NCBI RefSeq assembly: GCF_002572525.1
Contig: NZ_PDBS01000001.1
Coordinates: forward strand, 2,480,001-2,544,000
Source: Natrinema sp. CBA1119
Lineage (GTDB): Archaea; Halobacteriota; Halobacteria; Halobacteriales; Natrialbaceae
Direction of reading: 5' to 3'
DNA length: 64,000 nucleotides
Shown: positions 4,505-15,543 of the stretch, piece after piece
How positions within the stretch are numbered: position 1 is the first letter of the stretch
How the letters are laid out: every line of letters begins with the position of its first letter
Position numbers and translations under genes: made by a program
Notes under the pieces: model-generated
Told to the model about the DNA's origin: nothing
Databases searched by the model: none
What the model saw: only the letters and a program-made list of their open reading frames with translations

Positions 4505-5056
4505 ATGCGGATTCGCGAGTGGCAGGACGTACTCGAGGACGCCACCGAACGGACCGTCGATCCGGAGGACTGGCGCGCCGTCGCCGGTGACCGCGCCGGC
4601 GGCGTCGGCGAGGATATGTACCTCGCACATCCCCGAGCCGGCGTCTTCTTCCTGAAAACGTACGCGAAGAATCCCTTCGAGGTTCGCGGCGTCGGCGCGC
4701 GGGTCGCCCGAAACCTCGACGACGAGATCGGTTCGTTCCTCCCCGAGCGGGATTCGGGCGGCCGGTTCGCAGTGCAATCCCCGCCCGAAGACGAGGAGCA
4801 GGCCGAAACCGTCGGGAAGCGCCTCGAGACCGTCCTCGAGACGCACGCGGACGCGCCGACCAGTCCGCAGGACCTCTTTGACGACGTGATGGAGGCCCTC
4901 GAGAGCCCCGCGTTCGGTCCGATGTCGTACGACCAGTACGATCGGCCCGACGAACTCGAGGACCTCGCGGACCGGTTCGACGAGGCCGACGAGTTGCTGA
5001 GCAGCGAACTCGAGGACCTTATCGAGACTGACGAGGTCGATCGCGGCTTTATGTAA
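4505..5056 (+). CDS. Conserved haloarchaeal hypothetical protein
   Basis: 183 acidic residues with no signal peptide or membrane helix, beginning MRIREWQDVLEDATERTVDPEDWR. A globular N-terminal half (with a YLAHPRAGVFFLKTYAKNPF segment) is followed by a helical, Glu/Asp-rich C-terminal half. It starts with ATG 146 bp after the divergent small membrane gene. I do not recognise a characterised family. Confidence 0.7.
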   Translation: MRIREWQDVLEDATERTVDPEDWRAVAGDRAGGVGEDMYLAHPRAGVFFLKTYAKNPFEVRGVGARVARNLDDEIGSFLPERDSGGRFAVQSPPEDEEQAETVGKRLETVLETHADAPTSPQDLFDDVMEALESPAFGPMSYDQYDRPDELEDLADRFDEADELLSSELEDLIETDEVDRGFM

Positions 5057-5103
5057 AAAGGCCGCCTCCGTGGGGTGTTGCCCCACTCCGGCGGTGTCGT
5101 TCC

Positions 5104-5263
5104 AAAGAGCGCTCAGCGCTCTTTCGTGACTGAGCGAATCTGAGATTCGCGAGGTCCGCGAAGTCTTCGACTTCGCTTGATGCCGAGAGAGCAGCGCTCT
5201 CTCGTCGCAAATCGCTCACTTCGTTCGCGACTGCTTGTGTCGGCCGCTCGTCGCTCGACGAGG
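5104..5263. repeat. Array of five perfect short hairpins
   Basis: Within 160 bp downstream of the 4505 gene there are five perfect inverted repeats with 1-3 nt loops: 5104-5124 (AAAGAGCGCT/AGCGCTCTTT), 5134-5150 (GCGAATC/GATTCGC), 5158-5176 (GCGAAGTC/GACTTCGC), 5185-5203 (GAGAGAGC/GCTCTCTC) and 5248-5263 (CTCGTCG/CGACGAG). The stems differ in sequence, so this is not one repeat unit copied. The array separates GC-rich core DNA from the AT-richer island. Confidence 0.85.
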
Positions 5264-5302
5264 AGGCGCTGTTAGACACAGCTCTTGCCCTCTCATTCCT
5301 CT

Positions 5303-5360
5303 CGAAAAGAAGCCTTGATAAGCCGTCCTGTCACGTTGTTCGTCTCGTAGCTAAAGATGG
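5303..5360 (+). repeat. Left copy of imperfect ~58 bp direct repeat bracketing the island
   Basis: This segment begins CGAAAAGAAGCC and ends AGATGG. It matches 7910-7968 over its whole length with substitutions and single-base indels (shared blocks CGAAAAGA, GATAAGCCGT, CTGTCACG, AGATGG). The two copies lie at the two edges of the AT-richer segment. It overlaps the 3' end of the 5351 gene. Confidence 0.7.
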
Positions 5361-5728
5361 GTGGCGCTTGACGAGTTATACCGCTTGTATAGAAAAATAA
5401 TCCCAACCATCTGTTGGAGAAGTGGGATGAAAAATCCAAAAATACCCCCGAGAGTGTATAGAAGTGGGAGAGGATGCCATTCTGAATCTGTTCCCAGAAC
5501 GCTCTTCGCATCCTTATACACCACGATTGGGAAAATGAATATCAAAGTGATTCCAACAAACCCTAACAGACTAAGAAATAACAGTGCCGTTTCAGTAAGT
5601 AGCCTGATATCACTCTCGATGATGAGTAAACTTCCATAAATAGTTGGCAGAAGAACTATCGGAGCGACTACTACTCCCATAATCATGTACGTCCAAATTG
5701 TTGGTGAAAGGTTCTCTAGCCAACTCAT
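5351..5728 (-). CDS. Multi-helix membrane protein in the AT-rich island, unknown
   Basis: 125 residues, almost entirely hydrophobic, with about four membrane helices (about 10-35, 44-72, 84-101 and 103-115). Base and codon composition is clearly lower in GC than the neighbouring core genes, suggesting acquisition. The last codons fall in the left copy of the direct repeat. It lies 84 bp downstream of the Tat-exported protein on the same strand, so co-transcription is plausible. An immunity or transport role for the neighbour is speculation. Confidence 0.65.
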   Translation of the reverse strand: MSWLENLSPTIWTYMIMGVVVAPIVLLPTIYGSLLIIESDIRLLTETALLFLSLLGFVGITLIFIFPIVVYKDAKSVLGTDSEWHPLPLLYTLGGIFGFFIPLLQQMVGIIFLYKRYNSSSATHL

Positions 5729-5812
5729 GTTTTCACCAAGAATCTTATTGCAGATAAACTTTGCTATACCTATAGGGATCCGTGAACGGCCACTCTCTGT
5801 TAAACAGATCGC

Positions 5813-6430
5813 CTAAACAGGATGGCCGGAGTCCTTGATGTGTGTACACTTCCACCCTGAGAAGGATGGACGACATCCTTCAAGTTCGATTGTGGTGGAA
5901 TTATCACTAAAATTATAGCAGTAGTCGAAATCAACATATGCGACTAGTCCATCGAATTTTCTGCTTGAACAATGGTAATTTCCATCTGCACGATTAAATT
6001 CTTCTTTCATACTCTGGCCTAAAGCACCAACTTCAAACCATCCTACACTTTCCCCAACTGCTAGCTCAAATGTAACTTCAACTCCCATAACTTCCCTCGT
6101 ACCACCCCAAGTCCGGACACCTGGGTCTACGTCGTGGTCCTGAGTTCCAACCTGACCTCCCTGAACTTTGGCCTGTCCCTCTGATTCTTTGACCAGTTCG
6201 GTAAGGTTTGTTTCAATACCTGGTCTAAAGCCTTCCTCTTCATTAGAGGGTTCTTCTATAGAATCAACTTCATCTGAGTCAGGATTTGCGGCAGCTATTC
6301 CAGGTACGACAAGAGAAGTCGCGCCGATGATAGAGCCTGTTCGTAATAGAGACCGGCGTGTTCGTGCACAATCAATAGTTCTACCAATCCCTTCCTTCCT
6401 TTTACTATCATGGCATTTTTTATTTACCAT
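5813..6430 (-). CDS. Tat-exported cysteine-containing protein, unknown
   Basis: 205 residues. A twin-arginine signal (TRRSLLRTGSIIGATSLVV, about 24-42, followed by an AAAN-like cleavage region) is followed by an acidic linker and a small C-terminal domain holding four cysteines (YHCSS, DYCYN, EGCRP, WKCTH). Composition is AT-rich relative to the core. Exported Cys-rich C-terminal domains occur in haloarchaeal halocins, but no halocin family similarity is evident to me, so no function is assigned. The start chosen is the first ATG (MVNKKC). Confidence 0.65.
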   Translation of the reverse strand: MVNKKCHDSKRKEGIGRTIDCARTRRSLLRTGSIIGATSLVVPGIAAANPDSDEVDSIEEPSNEEEGFRPGIETNLTELVKESEGQAKVQGGQVGTQDHDVDPGVRTWGGTREVMGVEVTFELAVGESVGWFEVGALGQSMKEEFNRADGNYHCSSRKFDGLVAYVDFDYCYNFSDNSTTIELEGCRPSFSGWKCTHIKDSGHPV

Positions 6431-10353: not shown

Positions 10354-10592
10354 GAGTGGACGGTCCACGAGTGCACACTTAGACGTTTGGTTAGGTATAC
10401 GTTAGTGAGGTGTGTAAGGAGCTGTTACGGTGTTCGCCGTCTTTTACACTCGCCCGTATCGGCCACAAAATCGCCGGATGGAACAGGCGTGCTGTGCCGT
10501 CGGTTCCCGCGACAGACGGTAGCGTCGTTCGTCCGACCGGAATCGGGCTCCGGACCGGTACGATTAAGTGTCCGTCACCAGCGGTGTTGCGT

Positions 10593-10820
10593 ATGAGTGG
10601 ACGACCGCTGGACGTCCTCGAGGCGTCGCTCGGCGAACGCGTGACGGTGCGACTCAAGAGTGGCGACGAACACGTCGGCGAACTCGCCGGCTACGATCAG
10701 CACATGAATCTGGTGCTCGAGGATGTGACGGTTCCCGTCGAGGGCGGAGTCGACGACGAGGCGCCGGTCGAAGACACAACCATTATACGCGGCGACAACG
10801 TCGTTTCGATAACTCCATGA
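10593..10820 (+). CDS. lsm: Archaeal Lsm (Sm-like) RNA-binding protein
   Basis: 75 residues with both Sm motifs: Sm1 ([29 protein letters not shown], seen as consecutive strands) and Sm2 ([10 protein letters not shown]). Members form hexa- or heptameric rings that bind U-rich RNA. Start ATG at [10 protein letters not shown]. The stop overlaps the start of rpl37e (ATGA), the pairing seen throughout haloarchaea. Confidence 0.95.
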
Positions 10821-10993
10821 CTGGTGCAGGAACCCCGAGCCAAGGAAAGAAGAACAAGACGACTCACACCAAATGTCGTCGCTGCGGAGAGAAGTCTTAC
10901 CATACCAAAAAGAAAAAGTGCTCGTCGTGTGGCTTCGGCACGTCCGCCAAACGCCGCAGCTACGAGTGGCAGTCGAAGACCGGCGACAACTGA
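10817..10993 (+). CDS. rpl37e: 50S ribosomal protein L37e
   Basis: 58 residues with the C4 zinc finger [10 protein letters not shown]...CSSCGFG and a basic C-terminal stretch ([15 protein letters not shown]), typical of L37e. It begins at the ATG overlapping the lsm stop, so the two are co-translated. Confidence 0.96.
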
Positions 10994-11207: not shown

Positions 11208-12398
11208 ATGGAGACGACAGACGCCTTTACCGGACTCGAGTGCATCGATTGCGGGGCCGCCGTCGACGCTTCCGAGTCCCACCGCTGCCCGGACTGCGGC
11301 GGCGCGCTCGAGTCGACCTACGACTACGACGCGATCGACCTCGATCGCGAGATGCTCGTCGACCGCCCGTTCGACTCCCAGTGGCGCTACGCGGAACTGC
11401 TCCCGTTCGCTCGCGAGTCGGCGGTGACGACCGCGGAGGGAGCGACGCCGCTGGTCGACTGTCCCGATCTGGCCGACGAACTCGGGGTCGGGCGCGTGCT
11501 GATCAAGGACGATGGACGGAACCCAACCGGCTCGAGCACGGATCGCGGCGCATCGGTGGCCGTCACCGCGGCCGTCCACCACGGCGCGAGCGACGTTGCG
11601 CTCCCCTCGACGGGCAACGGCGGACAGGCTGTCGCGGCCTACGCGGGCCGAGCAGGGCTCGATTCGCACGCGTATCTCCCATCCCGATCCGGCTTTACGA
11701 ACAAGGCGATGGTCAACGTCCACGGCGGCGACATGAACGTCGTCGGCGGCCGGTTCGGCGACGCCGCCGGCGCGTTCGAAGAGGCGCTCGCCGAACACGA
11801 CGACTGGTACTCCCTCCGATCGTTCGACACGCCCTACCGCCACGAGGGCGCGAAGACGCTGTTCTACGAGATTGCAGAACAACTCGAGTGGGACGTTCCC
11901 GACGCGATCTGTTATCCCACGGGAGCCGGCACCGGGCTCGTCGGGCTCGCCAAGGCCGCACGCGAGTTTCGGGAACTGGGTCTGATCGACGATCTGCCCG
12001 CTCTCTACGCCGCCCAGGCGTCGGGCTGTGCGCCGATCGTCGAGGCGTTCGACGACGACCGTGACGAGCACGAGCCGGTCGAACACCCCGACACGATCTG
12101 CGGCGAACTCGAGATTCCCGATCCCGCGGCGAGTCCGCGAGTCCTCGAGGCGCTCAGCGAGAGCGGCGGCGGTGCAGTCGCGACGGAGGACCCGGACATC
12201 CTCGAGGCCGCCGTCCGGGTGGCCCAGACGACGGGACTCGAACTCATCCCGAGCGCGGCGGCGGCCGCAAGCGGCGCGTGGGAGCTCGCGGAGCGCGGCG
12301 CGTTCGACGGCGACGAGACGGTCGTCATCGTCAACACGGGATCCGGGAACAAGGAGGCCGACGTGTTGCGCAGCCACCTGATGAGTCAAGGTGTCTAG
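11208..12398 (+). CDS. Threonine synthase-like PLP-fold protein lacking the PLP lysine
   Basis: 396 residues with an N-terminal zinc ribbon (CIDC at 12-15, CPDC at 27-30) and a fold-type II PLP-enzyme body as in haloarchaeal threonine synthases. The motif that normally reads NPTGSFKDRG reads NPTGSSTDRG here, so the Schiff-base lysine position is Thr111 (coding ACG at about 11538-11540). The phosphate-binding motif appears as STGNGGQA, and a Gly-rich YPTGAGTG segment is present. By family it would convert O-phosphohomoserine to threonine; without the lysine that chemistry is doubtful. It may be a diverged paralog with another role. Confidence 0.85.
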   Translation: METTDAFTGLECIDCGAAVDASESHRCPDCGGALESTYDYDAIDLDREMLVDRPFDSQWRYAELLPFARESAVTTAEGATPLVDCPDLADELGVGRVLIKDDGRNPTGSSTDRGASVAVTAAVHHGASDVALPSTGNGGQAVAAYAGRAGLDSHAYLPSRSGFTNKAMVNVHGGDMNVVGGRFGDAAGAFEEALAEHDDWYSLRSFDTPYRHEGAKTLFYEIAEQLEWDVPDAICYPTGAGTGLVGLAKAAREFRELGLIDDLPALYAAQASGCAPIVEAFDDDRDEHEPVEHPDTICGELEIPDPAASPRVLEALSESGGGAVATEDPDILEAAVRVAQTTGLELIPSAAAAASGAWELAERGAFDGDETVVIVNTGSGNKEADVLRSHLMSQGV

Positions 12399-12737
12399 GT
12401 CGATCCGATCTTGCACTACAATCTGGAGCGCACTCTCCTGCCGTAACCGGGAATGCGATCTCGCACCCCGATCGGGAATGCTCTCTCACACTTCGACTGG
12501 GAACGCTGTCTCGCACTTCGACTGGGAACGCTGTCTCGCACTTCGACTGGGAACGCTGGGCGGTCTCCGCGCTGGGACTCGTCATCGGCTGTCGACCCAC
12601 CCACGACCGTGCAGTAACGAGTGATACCGCCGAGTAGAGTCGATCGAACCGGTAGCGGAAAGCGGCCCGGCCAAGAAAGCCGAACTCTTTCACCGACAAG
12701 GTCTTGCCTGCGAGGGGTGTAGACGAGACGAGTACCA
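12399..12737. other. Intergenic region containing a 25 bp tandem repeat
   Basis: No credible coding frame. The first half holds the tandem repeat listed separately. The rest leads into the 57-residue Cys protein and shows no clear structure. Confidence 0.6.
12449..12558 (+). repeat. 25 bp tandem repeat, four units plus a partial
   Basis: Units start at 12449, 12474, 12499 and 12524, with a partial unit at 12549. The two best units are identical: GGGAACGCTGTCTCGCACTT followed by CGACT. The first two units carry substitutions (GGGAATGC...). Units abut with no spacers, so it is not a CRISPR array. Confidence 0.9.
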
Positions 12738-13241: not shown

Positions 13242-13943
13242 ATGACTACCCCCTGGGACGACTGGAACCATATTCTCAAGCTCGATCCGGACAAGGAGTT
13301 ACCGGCGGGCGTGACCTACGGCGATCTCTGTGCGACCGGGACCGACGCGATCGAAGTCGGCGGCACCATGGGAATCACCGAGGAGAACATGAGCGCGGTC
13401 ATCGAGGCCTGTGCCGAACACGACGTCGCGCTCTACCAGGAGCCGTCGAACCCCGAGGTCGTCCTCGAGGACGACGCGCTGGACGGCTACCTCATCCCGA
13501 CCGTCTTCAACGCCGGGTCGCCGTTCTGGATCACCGAAGCTCACAAGGAGTGGGTCCGACTCGAGGGGGAACTCGACTGGGACCGGACGACGACGGAGGC
13601 CTACGTCGTGATGAACCCCGAGGCCGATGTCGCGGAGCTGACGGAGGCCAATTGCGATCTCGGCGCCGACGACGTTGCCGCCTACGCGACGGTCGCGGAA
13701 CACATGTTCGGCCAGGAAATCGTCTACGTCGAGTACTCCGGTAAGCTTGGCGACGAAAGCGTCGTCGAAGCCGCCGCCGAGGCCACCGACGAGTCGACGC
13801 TGTTCTACGGCGGTGGCATCCACGACTACGACTCCGCGTACTCGATGGCCCAGTACGCCGACGTGATCGTCGTCGGCGACCTCGCACACGACGAGGGAAT
13901 CGAGGCGGTTCGGGAAACCGTCGCGGCGGCGAACGACACGTAA
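13242..13943 (+). CDS. Geranylgeranylglyceryl phosphate synthase
   Basis: 233 residues of the PcrB/GGGPS TIM-barrel family. It transfers geranylgeranyl to sn-glycerol-1-phosphate, the first ether-bond step in archaeal membrane lipids. Visible motifs: [13 protein letters not shown] near 37-49, YVEYSG near 165-170 and [12 protein letters not shown] near 189-200, for phosphate binding. Start [21 protein letters not shown] matches family N-termini; longer upstream in-frame starts are Arg-rich and unlikely. Confidence 0.95.
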
Positions 13944-14008
13944 CTGTCCCCCTTTCCCCCGTCAAAGTAGCCTCAACTGTTTTGTCTCTCCGTATCAGAC
14001 GACCCTGC

Positions 14009-14662
14009 ATGAGTCTCCTCGCCGCGTTCGAGGCGTCGTCGTCGGGGCTCCTCCTCGGGCCGACACTCGAGGCCCTGCCGTCGATCGACGTGGAACTCGA
14101 GCGCCAGTACGCCCTCGATCCTGACCGCCCCATCGCGTTCTGTCGGGTTCGCTGTCGCGATCGCGACGGACTCGACCGAGCGCTCGCGGCCGACGGGACG
14201 ATCGCCGAGTTCGAGCGGATCAGCGGTGCCGACGGCGAGAGCCGATACCGGTTGCAACGGAGCGAGACGGATGTCATCGGTGCGTATCGTGCCTGGGTCG
14301 ACGCCGGCGGCGAATTACTCGACTGTCGGGGGTCGGACGGGCGCTGGGAGGTCGAAATGCGCTTTCCCGATCGAGACTCGTTCGGTCGCTATCACGAGTT
14401 CCTCGCGAACGAGGGCGTCTCCCTCGAGTTACAGCGACTCGCCGACGACGACCGTCAGCACCGGGGTCGCGACCGCGGAGCCACGCTGACCGACGCCCAG
14501 CGGGAGGCACTCGCGCTGGCCTACGAATACGGGTTCTTTGAGGTTCCCCGCGAGACGGGGCTGTCCGAGATCGCCGCCCAGCTCGGCATCTCGAATCAGG
14601 CCGTCAGCGAACGGCTCCGCCGCGGGCAGGCGCAGTTGATCGCGGACCGGGTCGTCGAGTGA
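14009..14662 (+). CDS. HTH regulator, bacterio-opsin activator type
   Basis: 217 residues. The C-terminal ~55 residues (LTDAQREALALAYEYGFFEVPRE..., then SEIAAQLGISNQAVSERLRRGQ) are the HTH_10 domain of bacterio-opsin-activator proteins. The N-terminal ~150 residues form the associated sensor-like domain common in haloarchaeal regulators of this size. It is expected to bind DNA in the cytoplasm. Neighbours do not identify its target. Start ATG at MSLLAAFEASS. Confidence 0.88.
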   Translation: MSLLAAFEASSSGLLLGPTLEALPSIDVELERQYALDPDRPIAFCRVRCRDRDGLDRALAADGTIAEFERISGADGESRYRLQRSETDVIGAYRAWVDAGGELLDCRGSDGRWEVEMRFPDRDSFGRYHEFLANEGVSLELQRLADDDRQHRGRDRGATLTDAQREALALAYEYGFFEVPRETGLSEIAAQLGISNQAVSERLRRGQAQLIADRVVE

Positions 14663-14683
14663 GCCGCTGGGTCTTGGGGAGTC

Positions 14684-15457
14684 TCAGCCGACGAGTTCTT
14701 GGAGCCGAGGAAGCGTATCCGTCACGTTCTCGCGATAGACTTCGTCCGCGATGTCGTCACAGGGCGTCGACTCGAGGTTGACGATCCCAACCGTCGCACC
14801 GGTCGAGGCGGCCGTTCGGGGGAGCGAGGCGGCGGGTTCGACGACCAGCGAGGAGCCGATCGCGAGGAAGACGTCGCTCTCGCGAGCGAGCGACCGCGCT
14901 CGCTGGATGACCGCGCCCGGGAGCTGCTCGCCGAAGAGGACGACGTCGGGTTTAAACACGCCGCCGCAGTCACAGGTCGGCGGTAGTTCGCCATTCGTGG
15001 CGCGCTCGAAGATTGGATCGCCGTCCCTGCGTTTCCCACAGTCCGTACAGCGGACCCGCTGTGAGTTGCCGTGTAACTCGAGGACGGTCGGTTCGCCAAT
15101 TTCCGCGCCGTCGTCGATCGCCGCGGCCGCGTCGCCGTGGAGCCCGTCCGTGTTCTGGGTGAGGATCGCCTCGAGGTCGCCGTCTCGCCCCATCTCGGCC
15201 AGCGCCTCGTGGGCCGCGTTCGGCTCGTACTCCTCGTCGAACATCACTCGCTGGAGTTCGACGCGGTCCTGCCAGAACCCCTTGGGATCGCGCTGAAACC
15301 GACCGTAGGCGAACTGTCCCTCGTCGAACCGGTCCCAGACGCCGTCGTTACCCCGGAACGTCGGTACGCCGGAGGGGGCCGAGATCCCCGCGCCGGTGAA
15401 GGCGACGACCGTGTCTGCACTTCGGACGTCGGCGGCGAGTCGCTCGAGGTCGTTCAT
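14684..15457 (-). CDS. Sir2-family NAD-dependent protein deacylase
   Basis: 257 residues with the sirtuin signature: [15 protein letters not shown] near 23-37, TQNTDGLH near 106-113, LHGN catalytic His, a CTDC...CDC zinc module, and [12 protein letters not shown] near the C-terminus. It removes acyl groups from lysines using NAD. The start is [18 protein letters not shown]; an upstream in-frame ATG adds an atypical HDDR-containing leader. It is convergent with the HTH gene. Confidence 0.94.
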
Positions 15458-15543
15458 ACATCGGTCGTCGTGCCGACCCGCCAAAACGATTCACCTCGGT
15501 GCGAACGACTGCGCTTAAGTTCCGCCTGCGTGAATCAGGTGAT

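Follow-up and report, generated by a model that had tools for sequence, protein, structure and literature searches.

On the forward strand of the 64,000-nucleotide stretch of Natrinema sp. CBA1119 DNA analyzed here (herein the window) lies a gene for a threonine-synthase-like protein that has no PLP lysine. Its reading frame is intact; the gene, the features of its product, and the upstream genes are listed in Table 1. A preliminary description of the locus had proposed that the PLP lysine is replaced by Thr111, and this is borne out both by the codons and by alignment with solved threonine synthases. The motif was also read correctly there, although its position is about 6 nt upstream of the approximate range then given (11526-11552). 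Just 3′ of the gene there is a tandem array with a 25-bp unit (window 12446-12558; 4.5 copies, 87% matches, consensus ACCGGGAACGCTGTCTCGCACTTCG), and the genes downstream (window 13290-15484) encode a protein of the PcrB/GGGP synthase family, a regulator with HTH_10/BAT domains, and a Sir2 family protein.

Table 1. Features of the threonine-synthase-like gene and its upstream flank (window coordinates)
Feature	Position	Strand	Basis
Threonine-synthase-like (PALP, NF006050) protein without PLP lysine, 396 aa	11208..12398	+	ORF, profiles, fold
N-terminal zinc-ribbon cysteines C12, C15, C27, C30	11241..11297	+	Read in translation
Motif NPTGSSTDRG, residues 105-114	11520..11549	+	Codons; alignment to solved threonine synthases
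Thr111 (ACG) at Schiff-base lysine position	11538-11540	+	Alignment to solved threonine synthases
Signature block 1, residues 158-186: P158, R160, F163, K166, M168, N170, V171, H172, V178, G181, R182, A186	11679..11765	+	
Former PLP-phosphate loop, residues 236-244, YPTGAGTGL	11913..11939	+	
Signature block 2, residues 293-302: P294, D295, T296, G299, E302	12084..12113	+	
Signature block 3, C-terminal helix and tail, residues 385-396: D385, R388, S389, L391, M392, G395	12360..12395	+	
Upstream LSm-like and L37e genes, locus marker of Natrialbaceae orthologues	10410..10993	+	Synteny table

The rest of the fold and the zinc ribbon had been described as intact, and both descriptions hold. The AlphaFold2 model of the window protein has a pLDDT of 97 and a pTM of 0.94, and its best solved structural match is Arabidopsis threonine synthase (PDB 2c2b, Z 50.2). 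All four zinc-ribbon cysteines are present; among the relatives aligned below, each is retained in 79 to 86 of 91 lysine-less and in 72 to 73 of 73 lysine-bearing proteins. Structure searches with the window protein returned the known fold only, with no hint of a partner. With 220.6 bits against the PF00291 (PALP) profile (cut-off 35), the protein belongs to fold-type II by profile as well as by fold, and it passes the curated cut-off of the NF006050 (PRK08197) “threonine synthase” model (343 bits; cut-off 303). Members of the NF006050 family are taken to be PLP enzymes, and lysine-less relatives fall off this model as the pocket decays (L176, 242 bits; L187, no score).

The window protein shares with ThrC (TIGR00260; PDB 2zsj, 1v7c, 2c2b) the whole-length fold, the N-terminal zinc ribbon found in archaeal ThrC, and the NPTG..DRG frame. 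It differs in scoring only 151 bits against the TIGR00260 thrC model (cut-off 167.1), in having Thr111 where the SFKDRG motif of fold-type II enzymes supplies the Schiff-base lysine, and in having YPTGAGTGL where the outgroups have the PLP-phosphate loop PVGNAGN. The genome also has a separate ThrC. A search for a second copy with SFKDRG had been suggested, and such a copy exists (L002, 38% identical); it passes TIGR00260 with 286 bits as an intact ThrC, and threonine synthesis therefore need not depend on the window gene. Two more SFKDRG paralogues (L003 and L004) are present in the same genome.

A sequencing error in the motif was considered and rejected because the two closest relatives of the window gene, L087 (95% identity) and L007 from Natrinema zhouii (93%), carry the identical codons TCG AGC ACG. 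Pairwise dN/dS between the window gene and these two relatives is 0.145 to 0.16 (NG86), and a value of about 0.15 indicates that the gene is no pseudogene.

Strong matches to the window protein (E <= 1e-60) occur in 389 of 391 Halobacteria genomes, a count in which a few matches could be ThrC paralogues. A divergent lysine-less copy (L187) is present in G002, below this threshold; in the draft genome G162 the gene is apparently absent, and only ThrC-like and more distant paralogues are found. In one-per-genus samples outside Natrialbaceae, all 62 genomes have a member of the subfamily, divergent in a few. The alignment of the subfamily comprises 164 sequences, 73 lysine-bearing and 91 lysine-less, and 12 residues (T, A, L, R, V, D, Y, H, N, G, Q, and I) replace the lysine in the latter. 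A description of these proteins was not found in the literature searched, which covers few subscription journals.

Two sets of residues were scored across this alignment: 12 pocket sites (F110, K111, S134, N137, A138, Y236, T238, G240, G243, H288, T377, and K382) and 23 signature sites (including R160, F163, K166, N170, R182, P294, D295, G299, E302, D385, R388, S389, M392, and G395). In the AlphaFold2 model the signature maps to the small domain (helix 163-171 and onward to residue 186), to the 293-302 loop, and to the helix at the C terminus. In the lysine-less proteins the pocket sites drift, to between 0 and 8 of 12, and the former PLP-phosphate loop is degraded in most of them. Signature sites are nearly invariant there (P294, D295, G299, and E302 in 91/91), a perfect score that is partly circular, the signature having first been chosen by its conservation in lysine-less proteins. 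The window protein keeps 8 of 12 pocket sites and its loss is therefore recent. R211, in the PyRxEG segment conserved in threonine synthases, is retained in 87 of 91 lysine-less proteins.

Lysine-bearing proteins that are the only copy in their genome have both sets (22.7/23 signature and 11.8/12 pocket sites), and block 1 is nearly invariant in them as it is in the lysine-less proteins. Of 391 genomes, 345 contain an exact DNA pattern for the segment from K166 to G174 (K-A-M-x-N-V-H-G-G), and all but one of these contain it a single time; the reversed control of the pattern gave no match in the 391 genomes. Most sites that distinguish the copies (see below) are not found in ThrC outgroups from the same phylum; these sites are therefore a haloarchaeal innovation. 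These comparisons indicate that the haloarchaeal ancestor of the subfamily carried a PLP pocket together with the lineage-specific signature.

Twelve genomes of the sample have two members of the subfamily, and in each of them an intact lysine-bearing pocket is found in one copy and the full signature in the other. On average, signature copies keep 23/23 signature and 4.2/12 pocket sites, and all are without the lysine except that of G156 (L181, motif TVKDRG, pocket 8/12). The extra lysine-bearing copies average 11.9/12 pocket and 13.2/23 signature sites; block 1 is altered in them and block 2 sites are lost. The comparison between the two kinds of lysine-bearing copies is the only one free of the circularity that comes with selecting the signature. 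The ancestral neighbors are absent at 10 of 10 extra lysine-bearing copies examined and many signature copies still have them; the signature copy is therefore the resident gene, and the lysine-bearing gene an extra that was moved or imported.

In a less circular test, sites were picked only by conservation of at least 95% in single-copy lysine-bearing proteins (177 sites). For the 12 of these that are lost in the extra copies, retention in lysine-less proteins is 0.945, versus 0.78 for the remainder (p = 6e-4); in eight lysine-less groups, thirteen signature sites reach 1.00. The reverse comparison is weaker (p = 0.055), a Fisher test for disjoint sets of lost sites was not significant, and the extra lysine-bearing copies stem from two clades only, so that independent splits are few.

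From these distributions we consider it probable that the window protein descends from a PLP-dependent threonine-synthase-like enzyme and is now a pseudoenzyme, that the ancestor was bifunctional, combining PLP catalysis with a second, non-PLP function, and that the signature-bearing copy performs this second function. The PLP reaction would have become dispensable, and the non-PLP function would have been kept by nearly all haloarchaea. It might consist of docking a partner through the small domain and the edge of the cleft (blocks 158-186, 293-302, and 385-396), for scaffolding or allosteric regulation. The same residues admit another use: R160, K166, N170, R182, D295, E302, D385, and R388 could, instead of a docking surface, form a new active site that needs no PLP or a site that senses ligands. 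Charged residues are frequent in the signature, its blocks 1 and 2 correspond in alignments to segments close to the substrate cleft in threonine synthase and TrpB, and the retention of R211 fits as well, but much of the cleft, namely the PLP cup, is degraded, and we regard this alternative as unlikely.

When the PLP-pocket columns are included, most lysine-less rows fall together in the trees, as expected for a trait with a single origin that was then passed on by horizontal transfer or gene conversion. A second tree, from which 86 columns conserved in lysine-bearing but relaxed in lysine-less proteins were left out, follows taxonomy instead: the lysine-less rows join their taxonomic and syntenic neighbors, and lysine loss falls in about six places, some of the joins being weakly supported. 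These places are the Natrinema/Natronorubrum/Natrarchaeobius group, Natronoglomus with Halovivax KZCA124, Halospeciosus, L052, L123/L152, and a large group of families f3 and f4 with Halarchaeum; the fewest changes of lysine state on this tree is 8. The clustering in the all-column trees is probably attraction by parallel pocket decay. Lysine is found within the otherwise lysine-less Natrinema group in the close relatives L008, L089, and L014 (TSKDRG; AGC AAG/AAA), whose other pocket residues are altered; it may have been either kept or regained, in these three as in L181.

The lysine-less genes also lie at the typical locus of their own family, with the same neighbors as their lysine-bearing relatives, which further weakens the case for a single origin; we judge it improbable. 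Natrialbaceae loci of both kinds have the LSm and L37e genes upstream (synteny table). Outside Natrialbaceae, lysine-bearing (e.g., L049, L054, L057, and L073) and lysine-less loci (e.g., L052, L064, L079, and L176 through L178) share combinations of metallophosphoesterase, amine-oxidase, DtxR, GDT1, LysE, HD, and AlaX genes. The shared neighbors of lysine-bearing and lysine-less genes indicate that the lysine was lost in place. Neighboring genes were rejected as a guide to function: LSm and L37e mark only the Natrialbaceae locus, with no functional link claimed, and the LysE, DtxR, GDT1, HD, AlaX, and amine-oxidase genes adjoin both kinds of copy alike and therefore mark position rather than a proven pathway.

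Sequence and synteny together indicate that the pocket was lost repeatedly in place and the signature almost never, the two features residing on different copies where a genome has two. We lean toward the broader view that a nearly universal, ancestrally bifunctional protein discarded its enzyme half in place about six times, and that the functions were partitioned between copies in two-copy genomes.

That the lysine-less proteins are still PLP enzymes, holding PLP without a Schiff base or using K100, K166, or K216 in place of the lost lysine, is very improbable. These three lysines are nearly invariant in lysine-less proteins, the pocket of the window protein is only partly degraded, and the title of PDB 2tys describes a TrpB K87T mutant with ligands in its active sites. 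However, K100, K166, and K216 are equally invariant in lysine-bearing proteins, so that none of them is a replacement, and the PLP-phosphate loop and other pocket residues drift. A lysine at a shifted position, which the preliminary description had named as grounds for doubt along with a sequencing error, was rejected on the same comparison: no lysine column is gained among the lysine-less proteins, and the conservation of K100, K166, K216, K249, and K382 in lysine-bearing proteins is at least that in lysine-less ones.

It is scarcely credible that the gene is a drifting remnant, redundant with ThrC since the lysine was lost, for although pocket residues drift after each loss, an intact ThrC is present in the same genome, and a one-base insertion scrambles the C terminus of one orthologue (L023), all other fetched orthologues have open, full-length frames, dN/dS is 0.10 to 0.23 across the lysine-less pairs tried versus 0.02 to 0.22 across lysine-bearing pairs (NG86), the signature is essentially invariant in the eight lysine-less groups, and the gene is retained almost throughout Halobacteria. 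The interpretation first suggested for the window protein, namely a pseudoenzyme or a conserved function in scaffolding or otherwise independent of PLP, is supported. The free lysine position, the pocket decay, the purifying selection, and the want of a replacement lysine all fit a conserved pseudoenzyme; the protein has kept its fold, lost its catalytic residue, and is under purifying selection.

In the related tryptophan synthase beta subunit (TrpB), the counterpart of the signature-bearing small domain communicates with TrpA. A model for the pseudoenzyme is provided by TSB-like of plants, a paralogue of TrpB that is catalytically dead and activates TSA (PMC12727527). The Asp of the TrpB SAGLD motif forms a salt bridge stabilizing the active TrpB conformation, and TSB-like has Glu there (PMC12727527). 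E302 aligns with this Asp in three MAFFT modes, a positional parallel only; the placement of K166 on TrpB Arg141, the Arg of the salt bridge, depends on the alignment. Both TSB-like and the window protein would be fold-type-II proteins in which catalysis was lost and a partner-related function kept, and the D-to-E change of TSB-like lies at the position aligned with E302. TSB-like differs in that its loss came about by E190A rather than at the PLP lysine, that it arose by duplication in one plant clade, and that its partner, TSA, is known. By this analogy we tentatively suggest that the window protein works as a dead fold-type-II subunit docking a partner via its small domain.

Among the candidate partners is true ThrC, on the sole ground that a ThrC-like paralogue persists in genomes with the smallest family set; apart from L145, these paralogues were recognized by score. 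For such a partnership, a report on trypanosomatid deoxyhypusine synthase (PMC3663545), which is not a PLP enzyme, offers a model: its catalytically dead paralogue activates the active enzyme by hetero-oligomerization. In the genome of the window gene, threonine synthesis would rest on the intact ThrC, L002. In Haloferax volcanii, a transposon mutant in thrC3/HVO_2969 is an auxotroph rescued by the combination of glycine, serine, and threonine (PMC4300041), and HVO_2969 is probably a true ThrC.

PLP-fold pseudoenzymes are already known, with TSB-like as an example of how such a protein of this fold can function; what is new is that a nearly universal gene has lost its lysine repeatedly in place and that two residue sets have been divided between copies. 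Most accounts of pseudoenzymes trace them to a single duplication. Here it is often the sole copy of the subfamily that loses the catalytic lysine, in parallel lineages, and another residue set is kept more strictly than the catalytic site. If our reading is right, these proteins form a natural, replicated series of transitions from enzyme to non-enzyme, in which the residues serving the hidden function can be read off and three versions of the protein (single-copy lysine-bearing, extra lysine-bearing, and lysine-less) can be swapped in one host. Many haloarchaeal “threonine synthase” annotations would then be wrong, the name being unreliable for the window protein, and a nearly universal function in Halobacteria would be uncharacterized.

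Compared with strain CDM_6 (L012), L023 from Natrinema hispanicum DSM 18328 (5001-6192) has its one-base insertion near codon 372; the insertion is either a real frameshift or an assembly error and affects the conserved C terminus. L144, L190, and L191 (G021, G218, and G286; families f5 and f11) are shorter lysine-less orthologues of 301 to 357 aa whose match starts only at about residue 57 to 73, and their zinc ribbon may be missing. L192 (G031) and L200 (G482) are further divergent PALP paralogues that keep the lysine, in the altered motifs NPTGCFKDRA and PTGTFKARG, respectively.
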